NCBI RefSeq assembly: GCF_025960875.1
Contig: NZ_JAODLR010000003.1
Coordinates: forward strand, 62,001 to 126,000
DNA length: 64,000 nucleotides
Source: Crystallibacter permensis
Lineage (GTDB): Bacteria; Actinomycetota; Actinomycetes; Actinomycetales; Micrococcaceae
Reading direction: 5' to 3'
Numbering within the stretch: the stretch's first letter is position 1; every line of letters starts with the position of its first letter. The notes below the pieces were generated by a model. That model ran no database searches, was not told the DNA's origin, and saw only the letters and a program-made list of their open reading frames with translations. The translations under genes were made by a program, and so were the position numbers. Shown here piece by piece: positions 11,695 through 50,809 of this stretch.

Positions 11695-11770
11695 GGCCCC
11701 ATCGTATAGCGGCCTAGTACGCCGCCCTCTCACGGCGGTAACGCGGGTTCGAATCCCGCTGGGGTCACCA
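11695..11770 (+). tRNA. tRNA-Glu (anticodon CUC)
   Basis: The acceptor GGCCCCA (11695-11701) pairs with TGGGGTC (11760-11766), followed by discriminator A and an encoded CCA (11768-11770). The anticodon stem CCGCC/GGCGG encloses loop CCTCTCA with anticodon CTC. The T arm GCGGGTTCGAATCCCGC is perfect. It lies 116 bases after tRNA-Gln and just before a terminator. Confidence 0.95.
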
Positions 11771-11772
11771 AT

Positions 11773-11809
11773 AACCGGTCCCGGACATCTTGTCCGGGAC
11801 CGGTTTTTT
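11773..11809 (+). terminator. strong rho-independent terminator after tRNA-Glu
   Basis: AACCGGTCCCGGACA (11773-11787) and TGTCCGGGACCGGTT (11791-11805) form a 15-bp perfect stem with a 3-base loop, followed by a T run. It ends the tRNA transcript. Confidence 0.93.
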
Positions 11810-30738: not shown

Positions 30739-31980
30739 CTAGAGCCGGTCCTTCAAAGTGGCGAGCCTCGACGCCGCTTCCTCCAGCACATCCACACGTT
30801 TGCAGAAGGCGAAGCGCAGCAGCGACTTGGTCCGTTCCGCACCTGCCGGGTGGCAGAACACCGGAACCGGTATGGCTGCCACGCCGACCAGTTCAGGGAG
30901 CCGGCGGGCCAACGCCGTTGCATCGGTAACGCCCAGCGGCGCCGCATCTACGTTGACGAAGTAGGTGCCTTGGGGCGTGAAGACGTCCAGACCCGTTGCC
31001 CGCAAGCCCTCGCTGAGGATGTCCCGCTTGCGCTGCAGCGTGTCCGCTACGTCTTGGTAGAAGGAACCGTCCAGCGCGAGACCGGCCGCCACGGCCGCTT
31101 GGAAGGGGGTGCCGGAGGAATAACTGAGGAATTGCTTGACGGTCCGAGCCGCCGCTACCAGCTCGGACGGCCCGCTCATCCAGCCGATTTTCCATCCGGT
31201 GAGCGAGAACGTTTTGCCCGCGGAGGAAATGGTGAGGGTGCGCTCCGATGCGCCGGGCAGCGTGGCCACGGGTATGTGGGCAACGCCGAAGGTGAGGTGC
31301 TCGTAGACTTCGTCCGTAATGATGATGGCATTGTGGCGGTTGGCCAGCTCCACGATGCGTGTCAGCGCCTCCCGCGTGAAGACACTGCCCATCGGATTGT
31401 GCGGGTTGTTGACCAGGATGACGCGCGTCCTCGCGGAAAAAGCCGCCTCAAGCGCGACCAAGTCCGGCTGGAACTCGGGCGCCAGCAAGGGCGCCGTGAC
31501 GTGGGTTGCGCCGCTGAGCGCGATCACAGCACCGTAGGAGTCGTAGAACGGCTCGAAGGTCAGGACCTCGTCGCCGGGGCCGGTCAGGGCAAGCAGGGCG
31601 GCGGCCAAGGCTTCCGTAGCCCCTGTGGTCACGATGATTTCCGTCTCCGGATCCGGCGTCAGTCCATAGAAACGCCGCTGATGGTCGGAGATCGCTTCGC
31701 GCAGCGCGGGGATTCCCTTGCCCGGCGCATACTGGTTTGCGCCGGCCGAGATGGCGTCACGGGCAGCCTCCCGCATCAGTTCCGGCCCGTCCTCGTCAGG
31801 AAACCCCTGGCCTAGGTTGATCGCGCCGGCGTGAACGGCCAGCGTTGTGATCTCCTCGAAGATGGTCACACCCAGATGGCCGTCGGCGCCCAGCAGGTTG
31901 GCGCCTTCGGCCGTGCGCAGCCATGGTGCGCGGTTCCCCGAGGCGGACCCTTGGGCCAGGTTTTCGTCCGTTCTGCTCAT
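30739..31980 (-). CDS. PLP-dependent class I aminotransferase
   Basis: The 413-residue protein starts at ATG 31980 (MSRTDENLAQG); a longer in-frame extension would cross coaD. It is a fold-type I aminotransferase with GQGFPDEDGP, NQYAPGKGIPALREAI, VTTGATEALAAAL, NNPHNPMGSVFT, TDEVYEHLTF and the PLP lysine in SSAGKTFSLTGWKIGW. The combination resembles the N-succinyldiaminopimelate (DapC), methionine and kynurenine aminotransferase group; the substrate cannot be settled from sequence. It is divergent from coaD, with 75 bases between starts. Confidence 0.88.
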   Translation of the reverse strand: MSRTDENLAQGSASGNRAPWLRTAEGANLLGADGHLGVTIFEEITTLAVHAGAINLGQGFPDEDGPELMREAARDAISAGANQYAPGKGIPALREAISDHQRRFYGLTPDPETEIIVTTGATEALAAALLALTGPGDEVLTFEPFYDSYGAVIALSGATHVTAPLLAPEFQPDLVALEAAFSARTRVILVNNPHNPMGSVFTREALTRIVELANRHNAIIITDEVYEHLTFGVAHIPVATLPGASERTLTISSAGKTFSLTGWKIGWMSGPSELVAAARTVKQFLSYSSGTPFQAAVAAGLALDGSFYQDVADTLQRKRDILSEGLRATGLDVFTPQGTYFVNVDAAPLGVTDATALARRLPELVGVAAIPVPVFCHPAGAERTKSLLRFAFCKRVDVLEEAASRLATLKDRL

Positions 31981-32055
31981 ATCTCCCAGTAATATCACTA
32001 CAACCGCGGCCTCACGTGCTGTGACTTGTGCTGTGAATGGATTAGATTCATAGAT

Positions 32056-32538
32056 ATGCGCCGAGCCGTCTGCCCTGGATCCTATGACCCGCTGCACAAC
32101 GGGCACGTTGAAATTATTGCCCGTGCCGCCAGCATGTACGACGAAGTGATCGTCGCCGTCTCCACCAACTATGCGAAGAAATACAGGTTCTCCCTGGACG
32201 TGCGTCTGGATATGGCGCGCCAGACCCTGTCCTACCTGCGGGGGATCACCGTGGAGCCGATGGGCGACGGGCTGCTGGCGGAATTTTGCCGCAGCCATGG
32301 TGCAGGTGTCATCATCAAGGGACTGCGTTCCACGCAGGATTACCACTACGAACTGCCGATGGCCCGGATGAACCGCCATCTCACTGGCGTCGAAACGGTG
32401 TTCCTGCCGGCGGAGAACAGTTACACACATCTCTCATCCACTTTGATTAAGGAAGTGGCGGCGCTCGGCGGTGATATCGCGGACTTTGTTCCCAAAGCCG
32501 TGCTGCAACGTTTCCAGCAGGACGAACAAGGACAATAG
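32056..32538 (+). CDS. coaD: phosphopantetheine adenylyltransferase
   Basis: CoaD makes dephospho-CoA from 4'-phosphopantetheine and ATP. ATG 32056 (MRRAVCPGSYDPLHNGH) gives 160 residues, the usual size. The nucleotidyltransferase motif is HNGH (14-17), followed by NYAKKYRFS, IIKGLRSTQDYHYEL and the C-terminal THLSSTLIKEVAALGGDI, in place of the common FLSSSLVKEVA. The first motif has CPGSYDP where YPGSFDP is usual. Both are mild variations. The gene leads into the DUF177-rpmF-rnc-mutM run. Confidence 0.93.
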   Translation: MRRAVCPGSYDPLHNGHVEIIARAASMYDEVIVAVSTNYAKKYRFSLDVRLDMARQTLSYLRGITVEPMGDGLLAEFCRSHGAGVIIKGLRSTQDYHYELPMARMNRHLTGVETVFLPAENSYTHLSSTLIKEVAALGGDIADFVPKAVLQRFQQDEQGQ

Positions 32539-32555
32539 TCCTGCGGAGCGTCCAT

Positions 32556-32585
32556 TTGAGAGTATGGGCAACTTCGCGCTAAGAT
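32556..32585 (+). promoter_or_regulatory. candidate promoter of the DUF177-rpmF-rnc-mutM run
   Basis: TTGAGA (32556-32561) and TAAGAT (32580-32585) are 18 bases apart. They lie 40 bases ahead of the DUF177 gene start, in the gap after coaD. Confidence 0.5.
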
Positions 32586-32624
32586 AATACGTCGGTCATA
32601 TGTTCTATAGGAGTTCTCATCGTT

Positions 32625-33230
32625 GTGATCATGAATCATGATCAAAAATCGCCCCTGGCTATTTCGGTCAAGGATCTCGGGCGCAGCCCGGGTACTATGC
32701 GGACCCTGAACGAGCATGTACCTGCACCGGATCAGTTCGGTGCAGCACTCATTGGCGTGCAGGAAGGCTCTGATATGGAGCTGGATCTGCGGCTTGAGTC
32801 CGTACACGAAGGCATTCTGGTTTCCGGCACTGCCACCGTTGATGTAACGGGGGAGTGCGGGCGCTGCTTGGATGCAATCGAGTATGATCTCTCCGTCAGG
32901 GTGCAGGAACTCTTCTACTACGAGGGCTTCGATCCGCAGGATCAGGGTCCGGATGATGAAGAGGCTGACGAGCAGCGGCGGGTAGAGCGCGATTCAATCG
33001 ATCTCGAACCGGTGTTGCGGGACGCAGTGGTAACCGCCCTGCCGTTCCAGCCGGTGTGCCGGGAAGACTGTAAAGGCCTTTGTCCTGAATGCGGGATGCG
33101 CCTTGAAGAGGATCCGGGCCACCAACATGAGGTTTTGGATCCTCGCTGGGCAGCCCTCGCCGGGTTGGCTGGCACAGCTGCCGATGAGGCAGCAACACGT
33201 ACAGAGTCAGACGAGAGAGAAGAGAGTTAG
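32625..33230 (+). CDS. DUF177/YceD family protein
   Basis: The protein has 201 residues from GTG 32625 (ATAGGAG lies at 32607-32613; ATG 32631 is the alternative). YceD-type proteins precede rpmF in most bacteria and are linked to 23S rRNA or L32 biogenesis. The domain has [13 protein letters not shown] (C78, C81) and [13 protein letters not shown] (C145, C149, C153, C156), giving a probable zinc site, and the central acidic linker [14 protein letters not shown]. rpmF starts 2 bases after the stop. The Cys-rich site here contrasts with the Cys-free L32 next door. Confidence 0.9.
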
Positions 33231-33232
33231 TC

Positions 33233-33436
33233 GTGGCTGTTCCCAAGCGGAAAATGTCCCGCTCGAATACGCGCGCACGCCGGTCCCAGTGGAAGGCAAC
33301 TGCGCCCAACCTGGTTAAGACCGTTGAGAACGGCCGTGTCACCTACAGCCTGCCTCACCAGGCCAAAGTCGTCACCGACTCGGCAGGCACTGCGCTGTTC
33401 CTTGAGTATAAGGGCCGCAAGGTAGCCGACGTTTAA
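33233..33436 (+). CDS. rpmF: 50S ribosomal protein L32
   Basis: This is a 67-residue ribosomal protein from GTG 33233. The opening [20 protein letters not shown] is diagnostic. The C-terminal half ([16 protein letters not shown]) contains no cysteine, so this is a zinc-independent (C-minus) form rather than the four-Cys zinc-ribbon form. It sits between DUF177 and rnc, the standard order. The Cys-free form is common in actinobacteria, so it does not by itself imply a second copy. Confidence 0.96.
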
Positions 33437-33446
33437 TAGCGTCCGC

Positions 33447-34142
33447 ATGCCTTCAACTGAAGAGCTTTTGAAGCGTCTCGGCGTCGAAATCGACGCCGAG
33501 ACGCTTCGTCTTGCTCTGACACATCGCTCCTACGCGTATGAACACGGCGGCCTGCCGACCAATGAGCGCCTCGAATTCCTGGGCGATTCCATTCTCGGCT
33601 TTTCCGTCACTGATGCGCTCTACCGCGACAATCCTGACCTGCCTGAGGGCGAGCTGGCCAAACGCCGTTCCGCCGTCGTCAGCACCCGTGCGCTGGCAGG
33701 AGTTGCCCGCGACCTGGATCTGGGCCAGTACATTCTGCTCGGCCAGGGCGAAAAGCTGACTAACGGCGCGGACAAGTCTTCCATTCTGGCGGACACCGTC
33801 GAAGCGCTGATCGGCGCTACCTACCTTGTTAACGGCATCGAAACCGCGCGCGGGATGGTCATGCGCCTCATTTCCCCGCTGCTCGCGGATGCCGAGGCGC
33901 TGGGCGCAGGCACTGACTGGAAAACGAGCATCCAGGAACTGGCCGCCGCCCGCAAGATGGGCAGCGTCGAATATGCCGTCCAGGGCTCCGGACCGGACCA
34001 CGCCAGGACGTTCGTGGCAACGCTGCGCATCGGCGGCACCGCTTACGGCCAGGGCACCGGCCACTCCAAGAAGGAAGCCGAGCAGGAAGCTGCCGCCGTC
34101 TCGTGGCGCCAGCTGCGTTCCGTCGAACCCGCAGATGCCTGA
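33447..34142 (+). CDS. rnc: ribonuclease III
   Basis: RNase III cleaves double-stranded RNA in rRNA maturation and mRNA decay. The 231 residues comprise the catalytic domain, with signature [13 protein letters not shown] (40-52) and the second acidic site [15 protein letters not shown], and a C-terminal dsRNA-binding domain ([15 protein letters not shown] to [15 protein letters not shown]). ATG 33447 is 10 bases after rpmF. mutM overlaps the end by 8 bases. The first 20 codons contain an 18-bp inverted repeat described separately; RNase III autoregulation by cleaving its own mRNA is known in E. coli. Confidence 0.96.
33470..33507 (+). promoter_or_regulatory. long perfect inverted repeat inside the start of rnc
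   Basis: GAAGCGTCTCGGCGTCGA (33470-33487) is the exact reverse complement of 33490-33507, with only AA between. The RNA would form an uninterrupted stem in codons 8 to 21 of rnc. An outer GAGC (33462-33465)/GCTC (33513-33516) pairing extends it across an internal loop. It is a possible RNase III substrate or translation-coupled control element. Confidence 0.6.
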
Positions 34143-35100
34143 ACTGCCTGAAGTCGAGGTGGTACGCCGCGGCCTGGCCCAGTGGGTCCGCGGCCGCACC
34201 ATCACCGGCGTCGAGGTCCTCGACGAGCGTTCCATCCGCCGCCATGCGCTCGGCGCCGAGGACCTGCGCGGCAACCTCGAAGGCACCAGGGTGGAAGACG
34301 TGGTGCGCCGCGGCAAGTTCCTTTGGCTGCCGCTGCGCGAAGAAACCAACGACGACGGCGGGGCGCCACGGCTTGCGCTGATGGCCCACCTCGGGATGAG
34401 CGGGCAACTGCTGGTCGAGGATTCCGTCCAGCCTGACGAAAAGCACTTGAAGGTCCGCCTCACCCTAAGCCCTGCCTCGAATGCCGACGGCACGTCCATG
34501 CCGGCCGAACTGCGCTTCGTCGACCAGCGGATCTTCGGCGGAGTTTTCCTGGCGGACCTGGTGCCGACGGCTGACGGGCACGCGGGAGGGCTGTCGGAAA
34601 GCGGCCTGCCACTGGTGCCGGTGGAGGCCACGCATATCGCCCGTGATCCGTTGGATCCTGCGTTCTCGTTCGATACTTTTTACCGCCGCCTGCGTGCCCG
34701 CCGCACCGGAATCAAACGCGCCATTCTGGACCAAGGTCTGGTCTCCGGGATCGGAAACATCTACGCCGACGAAGCCCTTTGGGCAGCTAAGCTGCACTAT
34801 GCCCGGCCCACCGATACGATGCGGCGAAAGGAAGCGGAAAGGCTGGTCGAAGCCTGCCGCGACGTCATGAACCGCGCATTGGACGCCGGGGGCACTAGCT
34901 TTGACTCCCTGTACGTGAACGTCAACGGTGCCTCAGGGTACTTCGCCCGGTCGCTGAACGCCTACGGGCGCGAGCGGGAAAACTGCAACCGCTGCGCAGC
35001 GCTGGGACTGGAGACCAAGATCCGGCGGGATGTCTTCATGAACCGTTCCTCCTACTCCTGCCCGGTGTGCCAGCCGAGGCCGCGCAACGCCCGCTGGTAG
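34135..35100 (+). CDS. mutM: formamidopyrimidine-DNA glycosylase
   Basis: This base-excision enzyme removes 8-oxoguanine and formamidopyrimidines and cuts abasic sites. From ATG 34135 it has 321 residues, starting [14 protein letters not shown]; after Met removal Pro1 is the nucleophile and Glu2 a catalytic acid. The helix-two-turn-helix has [18 protein letters not shown]. The C-terminal zinc finger [12 protein letters not shown] ends in SSYSCPVCQ, with all four Cys. An insert of about 30 residues (NDDGGAPR and [10 protein letters not shown] to [11 protein letters not shown]) makes it longer than the 270-residue E. coli enzyme, common in this group. It overlaps rnc by 8 bases. Confidence 0.96.
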
Positions 35101-35249
35101 CCTGAGCGTCGCCGCTGTCCTTTCCGGTAACGGCAATAAGCCCATGCCATAGGGTTTTCCCAAGGTCTGCCATTGACCTGGGCAACCAAGGAACGCTAGC
35201 TTTAGCCCATACCCGTTCGTAGTTCCACTTCCTTTGCGATGAGGCAAAT

Positions 35250-35891
35250 ATGGCTAGTGCCGGACTGTTATACGTAGGCGCAATTCTTTTCATCAACGGG
35301 CTGATGCTGCTCGGCCGGATTCCCGGAAAATCAGCCGCAATACTCAATCTCTTCGTGGGTGCCCTGCAGACCGTGGTGCCTCTCGTCCTGCTATCGCAGG
35401 CCCAAGGCGAATTGGCCCCGACGTTTGCGGCAGCCGGTCTGTTCCTGTTCGGCTTTACCTACCTCTATGTAGGCATCCTGCAGCTGACCGGCATCAGTGC
35501 CGAGGGACTCGGCTGGTTCAGCCTCTTCGTGGCTGTCGTCGCGATAGTTATCGGCGTCCTCAGTTTCACCCTGATCTCGGATCCGCTGTTCGGCGTCATC
35601 TGGATCACGTGGGCCGTGCTGTGGTTCATGTTCTTCCTCCTCATGGCCCTGGGCAAGGACTCCATCACGGCGGCCACAGGGTGGTTTGCCATCTTCTGCG
35701 GCTGGTTGACCTGCACCATTCCCGCGCTGCTGCTGCTCAGCGGCAGCTTTATCTCGACGGCCACCACTGCCTGGACCGGTGCGCTGATTTTCGCCGCATC
35801 CTTTGCCGCCTCATTGTTCCTGGGGCGGCCGCGACAAAAGAGCGACGCAGACCAGGTAGGGCCGGCAACAACACAAGGAGCGGCTTCATGA
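35250..35891 (+). CDS. amiS: AmiS/UreI family amide or urea channel
   Basis: The product has 213 residues with six strong hydrophobic segments and an opening GLLYVGAILFINGLMLLG typical of AmiS/UreI proteins. These form pores for short-chain amides or urea. GFTYLYVGILQLTGIS and WFMFFLLMALG are characteristic. The next gene overlaps by 4 bases and encodes an FmdB zinc ribbon, followed by formamidase, so the channel most likely admits formamide or acetamide. The 149 bases upstream hold an imperfect hairpin (CCCAAGGTC/GACCTGGG near 35159-35182) but no recognised operator. Confidence 0.9.
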   Translation: MASAGLLYVGAILFINGLMLLGRIPGKSAAILNLFVGALQTVVPLVLLSQAQGELAPTFAAAGLFLFGFTYLYVGILQLTGISAEGLGWFSLFVAVVAIVIGVLSFTLISDPLFGVIWITWAVLWFMFFLLMALGKDSITAATGWFAIFCGWLTCTIPALLLLSGSFISTATTAWTGALIFAASFAASLFLGRPRQKSDADQVGPATTQGAAS

Positions 35892-36172
35892 CTCTTTACG
35901 AATACCGCTGTGCCCAATGCGACGCGGTCGAGATGAATTTCGCGATGGGGCAGGCACCGCAGAGCACCGAATGTCCTGGCTGCGGACGGGAGGCCCGCAG
36001 GGTCTTCAGCGCGCCGAGACTCTCCATCGCCGGGACCAGCGCTTACAAACTGCTGGACAGCACGGCGAGGAGCGCTCACGAGCCGGACGTAGTCTCCGGG
36101 TTGCCCGGCAAGAAGACGCCCAAGCAACGTTATACGCACAATCCGCTGCACCAGAAGCTTCCGCGGCCCTGA
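35888..36172 (+). CDS. fmdB: FmdB-type zinc ribbon protein
   Basis: This is a 94-residue protein starting at ATG 35888, overlapping amiS by 4 bases. It has the FmdB zinc ribbon MTLYEYRCAQC with C8, C11, C29 and C32. FmdB is a putative regulatory or accessory protein named from the Methylophilus formamidase operon; its mode of action is not established. Its position between the channel and formamidase genes supports one nitrogen-scavenging unit. The C-terminal half is basic and probably flexible. Confidence 0.9.
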   Translation: MTLYEYRCAQCDAVEMNFAMGQAPQSTECPGCGREARRVFSAPRLSIAGTSAYKLLDSTARSAHEPDVVSGLPGKKTPKQRYTHNPLHQKLPRP

Positions 36173-49512: not shown

Positions 49513-50718
49513 GTGAACGACGTAACCATGATCCTTATATACGCTGTCATCGCGATCGCCGTGATCGGTACGGTTGCCATCCTCCTGGTCAAGGGCCGCA
49601 AGACTCCTCCTGGAACCTACCCCACCACTCGGGACGCCAACGACCCGGGGCGCGGCGGCGGTACCGATACGTTGGAAGCGCCACCTGCGCCGGCTGAACC
49701 CCGTGTGGCGGTTCCCGAGGAAGAACTGCCCGAGACTGACGTCGAAGTTGCCGATGATGCGGCGGGCATCGAGACGGTACCGGTCGAGACCCCTGCTCCG
49801 GTTGAGGGCAGGCTGGCCCGCCTGCGTGCCCGCCTGATCAAGTCCAACAACGCCCTGGGCAAGGGCCTGCTGGCGCTGCTCTCCCGGGACAAGATCGACG
49901 AGGACGTCTGGGACGAAATCGAGGAAACCCTCCTCATGGCGGACCTCGGCACCGAGCCAACGATGGAGCTGGTCGACGCCCTGCGTGCCCGCGTCAAGGT
50001 CGCTGGCAGCCAGGACCCCGAACACGTCAAGGCGATGCTGCGCGAAGAACTCATCAAGCTCGTTAACCCGGAGATGGACCGTTCGTTGGCCGTCGAGCGC
50101 CATGCGGACCGCCCATCTATTGTCATGGTTGTGGGCGTCAACGGCGTGGGCAAGACCACCACCGTTGGCAAGCTGGCCCGCGTGCTGGTCGCCGAAGACA
50201 AGGATGTGCTGCTGGGCGCGGCGGATACCTTCCGTGCCGCGGCAGCCGAGCAGCTGGCAACCTGGGGCCAGCGCGTGGGTGTGCCTACCGTAAAGTCCGA
50301 CGTCGATGGCGCGGACCCGGCGTCCGTCGCATTCGAAGCAGTGAAGGCCGGCATCGACCAGGAAGTCGACGTCGTCATGATTGATACGGCCGGCCGCCTG
50401 CAGAACAAGGTGGGCCTGATGGACGAGCTCGGCAAGGTCAAGCGCGTCATCGAGAAGCAGGCGATGGTTGACGAGGTCCTGTTGGTTCTGGATGCCACCA
50501 CCGGACAGAACGGACTGAACCAGGCCAAGGTCTTCTCAGAGGTCGTCAATATCACGGGCATTGTGCTGACCAAGCTGGACGGAACTGCTAAGGGCGGAAT
50601 CGTCGTCGCTATTCAGCGTAGCCTCGGCGTTCCGGTCAAGCTGATCGGCCTCGGTGAAGGCGCGGACGATCTGGCTCCGTTCGAAGCCGAAGCTTTTGTG
50701 GATGCCCTCCTGAACTAA
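49513..50718 (+). CDS. ftsY: signal recognition particle receptor FtsY
   Basis: FtsY docks SRP-ribosome complexes at the membrane. The 401 residues from GTG 49513 begin with a transmembrane helix (about 6-26), then a Pro/acid-rich linker and the NG domain: N domain with LSRDKIDEDVWDEIEETLL, G1 GVNGVGKTTTVGKLA, DTFRAAAAEQL, G3 DTAGRL, G4 TKLDGTAKGG, and closing GLGEGADDLAPF. A membrane-spanning N-terminus rather than a soluble A domain is usual in actinobacteria. It is followed by two hairpins and a convergent gene. ffh is 8 kb downstream. Confidence 0.96.
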   Translation: MNDVTMILIYAVIAIAVIGTVAILLVKGRKTPPGTYPTTRDANDPGRGGGTDTLEAPPAPAEPRVAVPEEELPETDVEVADDAAGIETVPVETPAPVEGRLARLRARLIKSNNALGKGLLALLSRDKIDEDVWDEIEETLLMADLGTEPTMELVDALRARVKVAGSQDPEHVKAMLREELIKLVNPEMDRSLAVERHADRPSIVMVVGVNGVGKTTTVGKLARVLVAEDKDVLLGAADTFRAAAAEQLATWGQRVGVPTVKSDVDGADPASVAFEAVKAGIDQEVDVVMIDTAGRLQNKVGLMDELGKVKRVIEKQAMVDEVLLVLDATTGQNGLNQAKVFSEVVNITGIVLTKLDGTAKGGIVVAIQRSLGVPVKLIGLGEGADDLAPFEAEAFVDALLN

Positions 50719-50771: not shown

Positions 50772-50809
50772 GCCGAAGGGCGGACGTGATATCACGTCCG
50801 CCCTTCGGC
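50772..50809. terminator. 38-bp perfect palindrome between ftsY and the HNH pseudogene
   Basis: GCCGAAGGGCGGACGTGAT (50772-50790) is followed directly by its exact reverse complement (50791-50809). It lies between convergent genes and is flanked by ATTT and AAA stretches. It is probably a two-way terminator. Confidence 0.8.

Follow-up and report, generated by a model that had tools for sequence, protein, structure and literature searches.

The rnc gene of C. permensis and its hairpin

The window analysed here, a 64-kb stretch of Crystallibacter permensis DNA, carries yceD, rpmF, rnc and mutM in this order, with the start of mutM overlapping the end of rnc. rpmF (33233..33436, plus strand) encodes ribosomal protein L32 (PF01783) and lies 5' of rnc. 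The rnc gene (33447..34142, plus strand) encodes a ribonuclease III of 231 aa that matches the TIGR02191 equivalog as well as PF14622, PF00636 and PF00035. In the profile search its product scored 221.6 bits with TIGR02191, against a cut-off of 166.25. The gene encodes a true RNase III.

An earlier note on this DNA had claimed a perfect inverted repeat of 18 bp, with 2 nt between the arms, in codons 8-21 of rnc. This description was exact, and the arms are 100% complementary. On the plus strand, the 5' arm (33470..33487) runs from the last base of codon 8 to the second base of codon 14 and the 3' arm (33490..33507) from the second base of codon 15 to the first base of codon 21, both supported by complementarity, predicted fold and covariation. 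The hairpin spans nucleotides 24-61 of the reading frame. In the RNA fold prediction the innermost pair, around the 2-nt loop, stays unformed, which gives 17 Watson-Crick pairs and a 4-nt loop (33487..33490). An extra outer pair, U33469-G33508, was predicted below the stem. The fold also has a predicted lower helix between AGAGC (33461..33465) and GCUCU (33513..33517) that is conserved in part only. A conserved lower stem of the form AGAGC/GCNCU was rejected: it was predicted in many single folds, yet other species pair differently. A long-range helix of CUUGC (33510-33514) with an upstream GCAAG was also dropped, being inconsistent and present in few of the 45 sequences displayed (of 102).

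The 141-nt stretch with the hairpin was predicted to fold at -70.3 kcal/mol, compared with -42.1 ± 4.1 kcal/mol for shuffled sequences (z -6.9), and none of 200 shuffles folded as well. When 80-nt segments were folded in steps of 20 nt from 31900 to 35300, the hairpin was the strongest (z -8.9), and the best non-overlapping segment reached z -3.6. Synonymous recoding of codons 4-27 of the C. permensis rnc gave z -5.2, again with 0 of 200 recoded sequences folding as well. When the 64-kb window was shuffled 30 times with dinucleotides preserved, the longest perfect arm (loop of 2-12 nt) reached at most 13, with a median of 10. The rnc hairpin is thus not a chance product.

The window contains other long hairpins. 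A second perfect hairpin of 18 bp (50772-50809) lies 3' of ftsY (49513-50718, TIGR00064); it looks terminator-like, without a long T run. At 11773-11805, directly after the tRNA-Glu gene (11695-11770), a 15-bp hairpin precedes a T run and looks like an intrinsic terminator. Both are outside every listed ORF of at least 100 aa, so the description of the rnc stem as exceptional in coding DNA stood for the coding DNA of this window but does not extend to the genome as such. An intrinsic terminator was rejected for the rnc hairpin, which lies inside an open frame and has no T run after 33507. The search of 31500-36000 against Rfam found no family at gathering score, and at E values up to 1 it gave only ten matches, far below gathering and mostly to microRNA hairpin families.

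Compensatory changes keep the hairpin across the Micrococcaceae

The family was taken as Micrococcaceae from its named Arthrobacter relatives. A covariance model (R1) was built from 44 sequences. In C. permensis it delimits the whole element at 33459..33514 on the plus strand (G000:C3:95459-95514, 85.8 bits, E 6.4e-22); apart from this, it hit the genome only on the complementary strand at that position. The model matched 292 of 295 family genomes (E <=0.01) in 32 of 32 genera; the placement of the match inside rnc was checked for a subset of the 292. By protein match, rnc was found in 291 of the 295 genomes. The three genomes missed by the model (G073, G167 and G228) are ones where rnc was likewise not found, and the fourth without a detected rnc (G076) gave only a marginal model match (0.0084). 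A scan of named genomes for rnc gave 547 confirmed candidates, of which the best 80 were kept.

For pairing, 133 family loci were picked by protein match, of which 132 were anchored by motif and 102 were distinct in the 72-nt test stretch. In the C. permensis register, 13-18 of the 18 positions pair in the 132 anchored loci, and at least 16 pair in 124 of them (13 pairs in 2 loci, 14 in 1, 15 in 5, 16 in 39, 17 in 35 and 18 in 50). Among the outer 16 pairs, 12-16 form in the 102 distinct sequences and all 16 form in 81. The remaining locus (L285, G217:C3) could not be anchored because of an N gap shortly after the hairpin, flanked by a repeated stretch, but a hairpin is present; the gap is perhaps a misassembly. 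Two other records deserve mention. The rnc region of WNZI01000002.1 (L085), a record that bears the name Vibrio cholerae 35D, is Arthrobacter-like, and the record is mislabelled or contaminated; the rnc match at G755:C103:36074-36742 contains one in-frame TGA.

The folding strength of the hairpin stretch was compared with synonymous recodings in 101 of the 102 sequences (L097, which pairs at 18 of 18 positions, was omitted). The median z was -3.85, with z <=-3 in 87 and z <=-2 in 98 of the 101. Eight other stretches of rnc had medians from -0.62 to -0.05, and z <=-3 was reached in 0-4 of the 102 sequences. At the start of mutM, used as a control in 13 loci, the median z was -0.17 and the lowest -2.69.

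The earlier note had asked whether, in relatives, the arms still pair where third codon positions differ. Our results gave strong support for this. In 78 distinct sequences 97.5% of the cells were paired, and changes on both sides were seen in 7 of 17 pairs; when the partner was slid along, pairing fell to 31-48%. On four measures, none of 500 shuffles matched the observed covariation; on the fifth, which counts further pair types, 3 of the 500 did. Changes were also counted on a tree of the 102 sequences made from 540 nt of rnc itself (Fitch counts, mean of 20 random tie resolutions). About 31 double changes kept a pair and 4 broke one, while 58 single changes kept and 18 broke a pair; slid controls on this tree gave 0-2 kept double changes. 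Changes of both partners on the same branch were observed 24 times against 6.2 expected, with a maximum of 14 in 2000 simulations. There is thus good support for selection on an RNA stem in the rnc message.

The facing codons of the stem are mostly reverse complements in the 102 sequences, even where the residues differ. R10/T19 are encoded by CGT/ACG in 90 of the 102, and the other combinations at 10/19 are H/M by CAT/ATG (4), S/T by AGT/ACT (3), Q/L by CAG/CTG (2) and three others. At positions 9/20, K/L by AAG/CTT occurs in 72, E/L by GAG/CTC in 10 and K/F by AAA/TTT in 5, and the remaining 15 show a wobble or mismatch. L11/E18 are CTC/GAG in 61 sequences, and L11/G18 are CTC/GGG, with a G·U pair, in 41. 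The third base of Gly12 tracks residue 17: Pro17 is accompanied by GGG in 20 of 21 sequences, Ser17 by GGA in 7 of 8, Thr17 by GGT in 13 of 14 and Ala17 by GGC or GGT in 57 of 59. Elsewhere in rnc, GGC makes up 57% of the glycine codons.

The imperfect pairs bear on which molecule is under selection. In 75 distinct stems the outer 16 pairs contained 68 G·U combinations against 4 A·C, besides 27 mismatches of other kinds. Protein constraints could skew these counts, so the free third base of Gly12 offers a cleaner test. GGT facing Ala17, a wobble in the sense strand, was found in 35 of 59 cases, and GGC facing Thr17, a wobble in the opposite strand, in 1 of 14. Both asymmetries point to sense RNA rather than to DNA or an antisense transcript. 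In conclusion, compensatory changes have maintained the hairpin throughout the family, and they are of the kind expected for a sense-strand RNA.

Biased synonymous codons also occur next to the stem. In the 3' flank GUCUUGC (33508..33514, plus strand, codons 21-23), which lies almost wholly outside the stem, the rare codons CGT and CTT are kept: CGT makes up 0.96 of 83 Arg at codon 21 (background 0.14) and CTT 0.94 of 93 Leu at codon 22 (background 0.10). In the 5' flank (33450..33467, plus strand, codons 2-7), codons 2-4 carry 3.3-3.9 bits per sequence (measured in the 38, 50 and 66 sequences that have the most frequent residue), and at codon 7 CTT makes up 0.72 of 98 Leu (background 0.10). 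The bias peaks in codons 2-22 and is small in most of the later codons listed, with codon 25 as the main exception. Within 33508-33521, CGT21, CTT22 and ACA25 are over-used family-wide, codons 22 and 25 being outside the stem.

The stem beyond the family

At the level of the order, 34 loci were chosen without regard to the stem, and all except L324 could be anchored. Among these 33, z was <=-2 in 10 and <=-3 in 5. For the class, with Streptomycetaceae set apart, the corresponding numbers were 9 and 4 of 64 distinct sequences. Most other sampled families of the class have no clear stem, which counts against the cleavage reading discussed below. Two loci of one family of the order (L271 and L303, family f5) carry a different hairpin nearer the start of this stretch of rnc, with compensating differences between them.

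A further 40 regions were picked by the covariance model, a choice that is biased toward pairing. By motif, 29 of them were rnc, with 13-18 of 18 positions paired; the other 11 were not rnc and were dropped as other hairpins. The model-picked relatives build their stems from other codons, for example AAG/CTT for K10/L19 and CAG/CTG for Q10/L19. In some sister families, a stem is present at the same place of rnc.

One family of the class (f37) was taken as Streptomycetaceae, since two of its loci are identical here to Yinghuangia and others resemble Streptomyces. This set has 55 loci, from 30 of 61 genomes and 25 others, and 45 distinct sequences. All 45 fold, as judged by eye, into a strong stem in the corresponding part of rnc, and z was <=-2 in 21 of the 23 distinct sequences tested. 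In the C. permensis register, only 8-11 of the 18 positions pair in four Streptomyces or Yinghuangia loci and two other outgroups. The Streptomycetaceae stem re-forms in another register and does not share that of C. permensis.

Probable self-cleavage by RNase III and alternative functions

As the best explanation, we consider it probable that this hairpin near the start of the rnc coding region, maintained by selection as RNA, is a cleavage site for the encoded RNase III. The simplest interpretation is the feedback reported for other bacteria, here acting 24 nt into the frame. The earlier note had proposed the hairpin as a self-control element of this enzyme, and our results support this in part: the covariation speaks for selection on an RNA stem in the rnc transcript, for which self-cleavage would be the likeliest use. 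RNase III that is free and abundant, compared with its other substrates or with translating ribosomes, would bind and cut the stem at codons 8-21. The cut would part the start codon from the rest of the frame, the 3' piece would be degraded, and through this loss of message RNase III would lower its own level. The stem starts at nucleotide 24 of the reading frame, close to the edge of the region that a ribosome covers during initiation, so its folding and translation probably compete.

Autoregulation of absB/rnc in S. coelicolor was reportedly described by Xu, Huang and Cohen in 2008. According to a review (PMC10126417), RNase III of S. coelicolor cuts the polycistronic rnc message at two stem-loops, one of which is in the rnc cistron, and the half-life of the rnc message rises in an rnc point mutant. 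As in C. permensis, this is an actinobacterial rnc with a stem-loop in its own cistron, and for S. coelicolor self-cleavage is reported. The stem that we found in Streptomycetaceae differs from the Arthrobacter stem in register and sequence and is usually bulged, and its match to the mapped S. coelicolor site is putative. RNase III of S. aureus also cuts a stem-loop inside its own rnc coding sequence, for which feedback was proposed (PMC3386247); the main site there is U+296 in a long irregular helix, whereas the C. permensis stem is near-perfect and occupies nucleotides 24-61. The claim in the earlier note that E. coli RNase III cuts its own message in the 5' leader agrees with PMC8708148 and PMC7509114, in which the cut at this leader site (rncO) destabilises the message. 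rncO lies in the 5' untranslated region, unlike the C. permensis hairpin, which is in the coding region. Cleavage within a coding sequence was described for the E. coli arfA mRNA (PMC8708148), although this concerns another gene and another purpose than RNase III feedback.

A further conserved stem in the upstream part of the operon, of the kind reported for S. coelicolor, was considered but not retained. An 80-nt segment at 32720 of C. permensis had z -3.6, and in seven other loci upstream segments of the operon had z from -1.9 to -5.3, at places that differ between loci. In one of them (L110), the upstream segment at -680 (z -5.28) was nearly as structured as the stem itself (z -5.32), a point against the cleavage reading. 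In the titles and abstract starts of a literature that includes few subscription journals, we found no report of the element in Micrococcaceae and no papers on Arthrobacter with RNase III and rnc.

The selected RNA stem might instead act on translation, as a barrier shortly after the start codon that sets initiation or slows elongation, with or without binding of RNase III and not mainly through cleavage. The position of the stem, beginning at nucleotide 24 of the frame, fits such a role, as does the synonymous bias outside the stem. The cleavage stem alone does not explain the bias at codons 2-4, 7, 22 and 25, and this counts against the cleavage reading. Yet the gene that carries the stem encodes a double-strand-specific RNase, RNase III of other bacteria is reported to cut its own message, and 17-18 near-perfect pairs seem to be more than a barrier would need. 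We regard an action mainly on translation as unlikely, at roughly one chance in six. It is improbable that the inverted repeat works as DNA, in a cruciform or as the binding site of a dimeric protein, or within an antisense transcript. The opposite strand was matched by the model too, as it would be for any near-palindrome, and an antisense RNA to rnc was reported in Streptomyces (PMC5775266); against this stand the excess of G·U over A·C pairs, the common sense-type and rare antisense-type wobble at Gly12, and a sequence that is not fixed, its arms changing together.

Many arms are perfect and change together, which could also come from template switching between the near-palindromic arms, a mutational process that would keep the repeat going in place of selection. 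Such a process would not favour G·U over A·C, observed at 68 to 4, and the model matches in all 32 genera and the different register of the Streptomycetaceae stem further argue against it, which makes it highly improbable. Finally, the pairing might be a coincidence of protein sequence and codon bias, since CTC/GAG, GTC/GAC and similar codons are reverse complements in GC-rich genomes. The protein does account for part of the pairing: several sequences at the order level pair well and have a weak z (L168, z 0.8; L162, z -0.2), and this explanation may hold for some of the more distant families. For the Micrococcaceae it is contradicted by the 98 of 101 sequences with z <=-2 against synonymous recoding and by the use of the rare codons CTT and CGT where pairing requires them. 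As a general account, we give it almost no credence.

Returning to RNase III cleavage of the stem, a broader proposal would join two parts: a feedback operator for the enzyme in the opening two dozen codons of rnc in Micrococcaceae, some sister families and Streptomycetaceae, and RNA pairing, not protein contacts, steering the co-change of residues 9/20, of residues 10/19 and of residue 17 with the third base of Gly12. To this joint proposal we assign about even chances. The element suggests that self-control of RNase III is located at a shared part of rnc in two large actinobacterial groups, and it offers a directly testable site in the Arthrobacter group. As an example of RNA structure superimposed on a protein-coding sequence it is unusually clean, with silent and amino-acid changes that compensate each other. 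It is also a warning that RNA can cause co-variation of residues in protein alignments.
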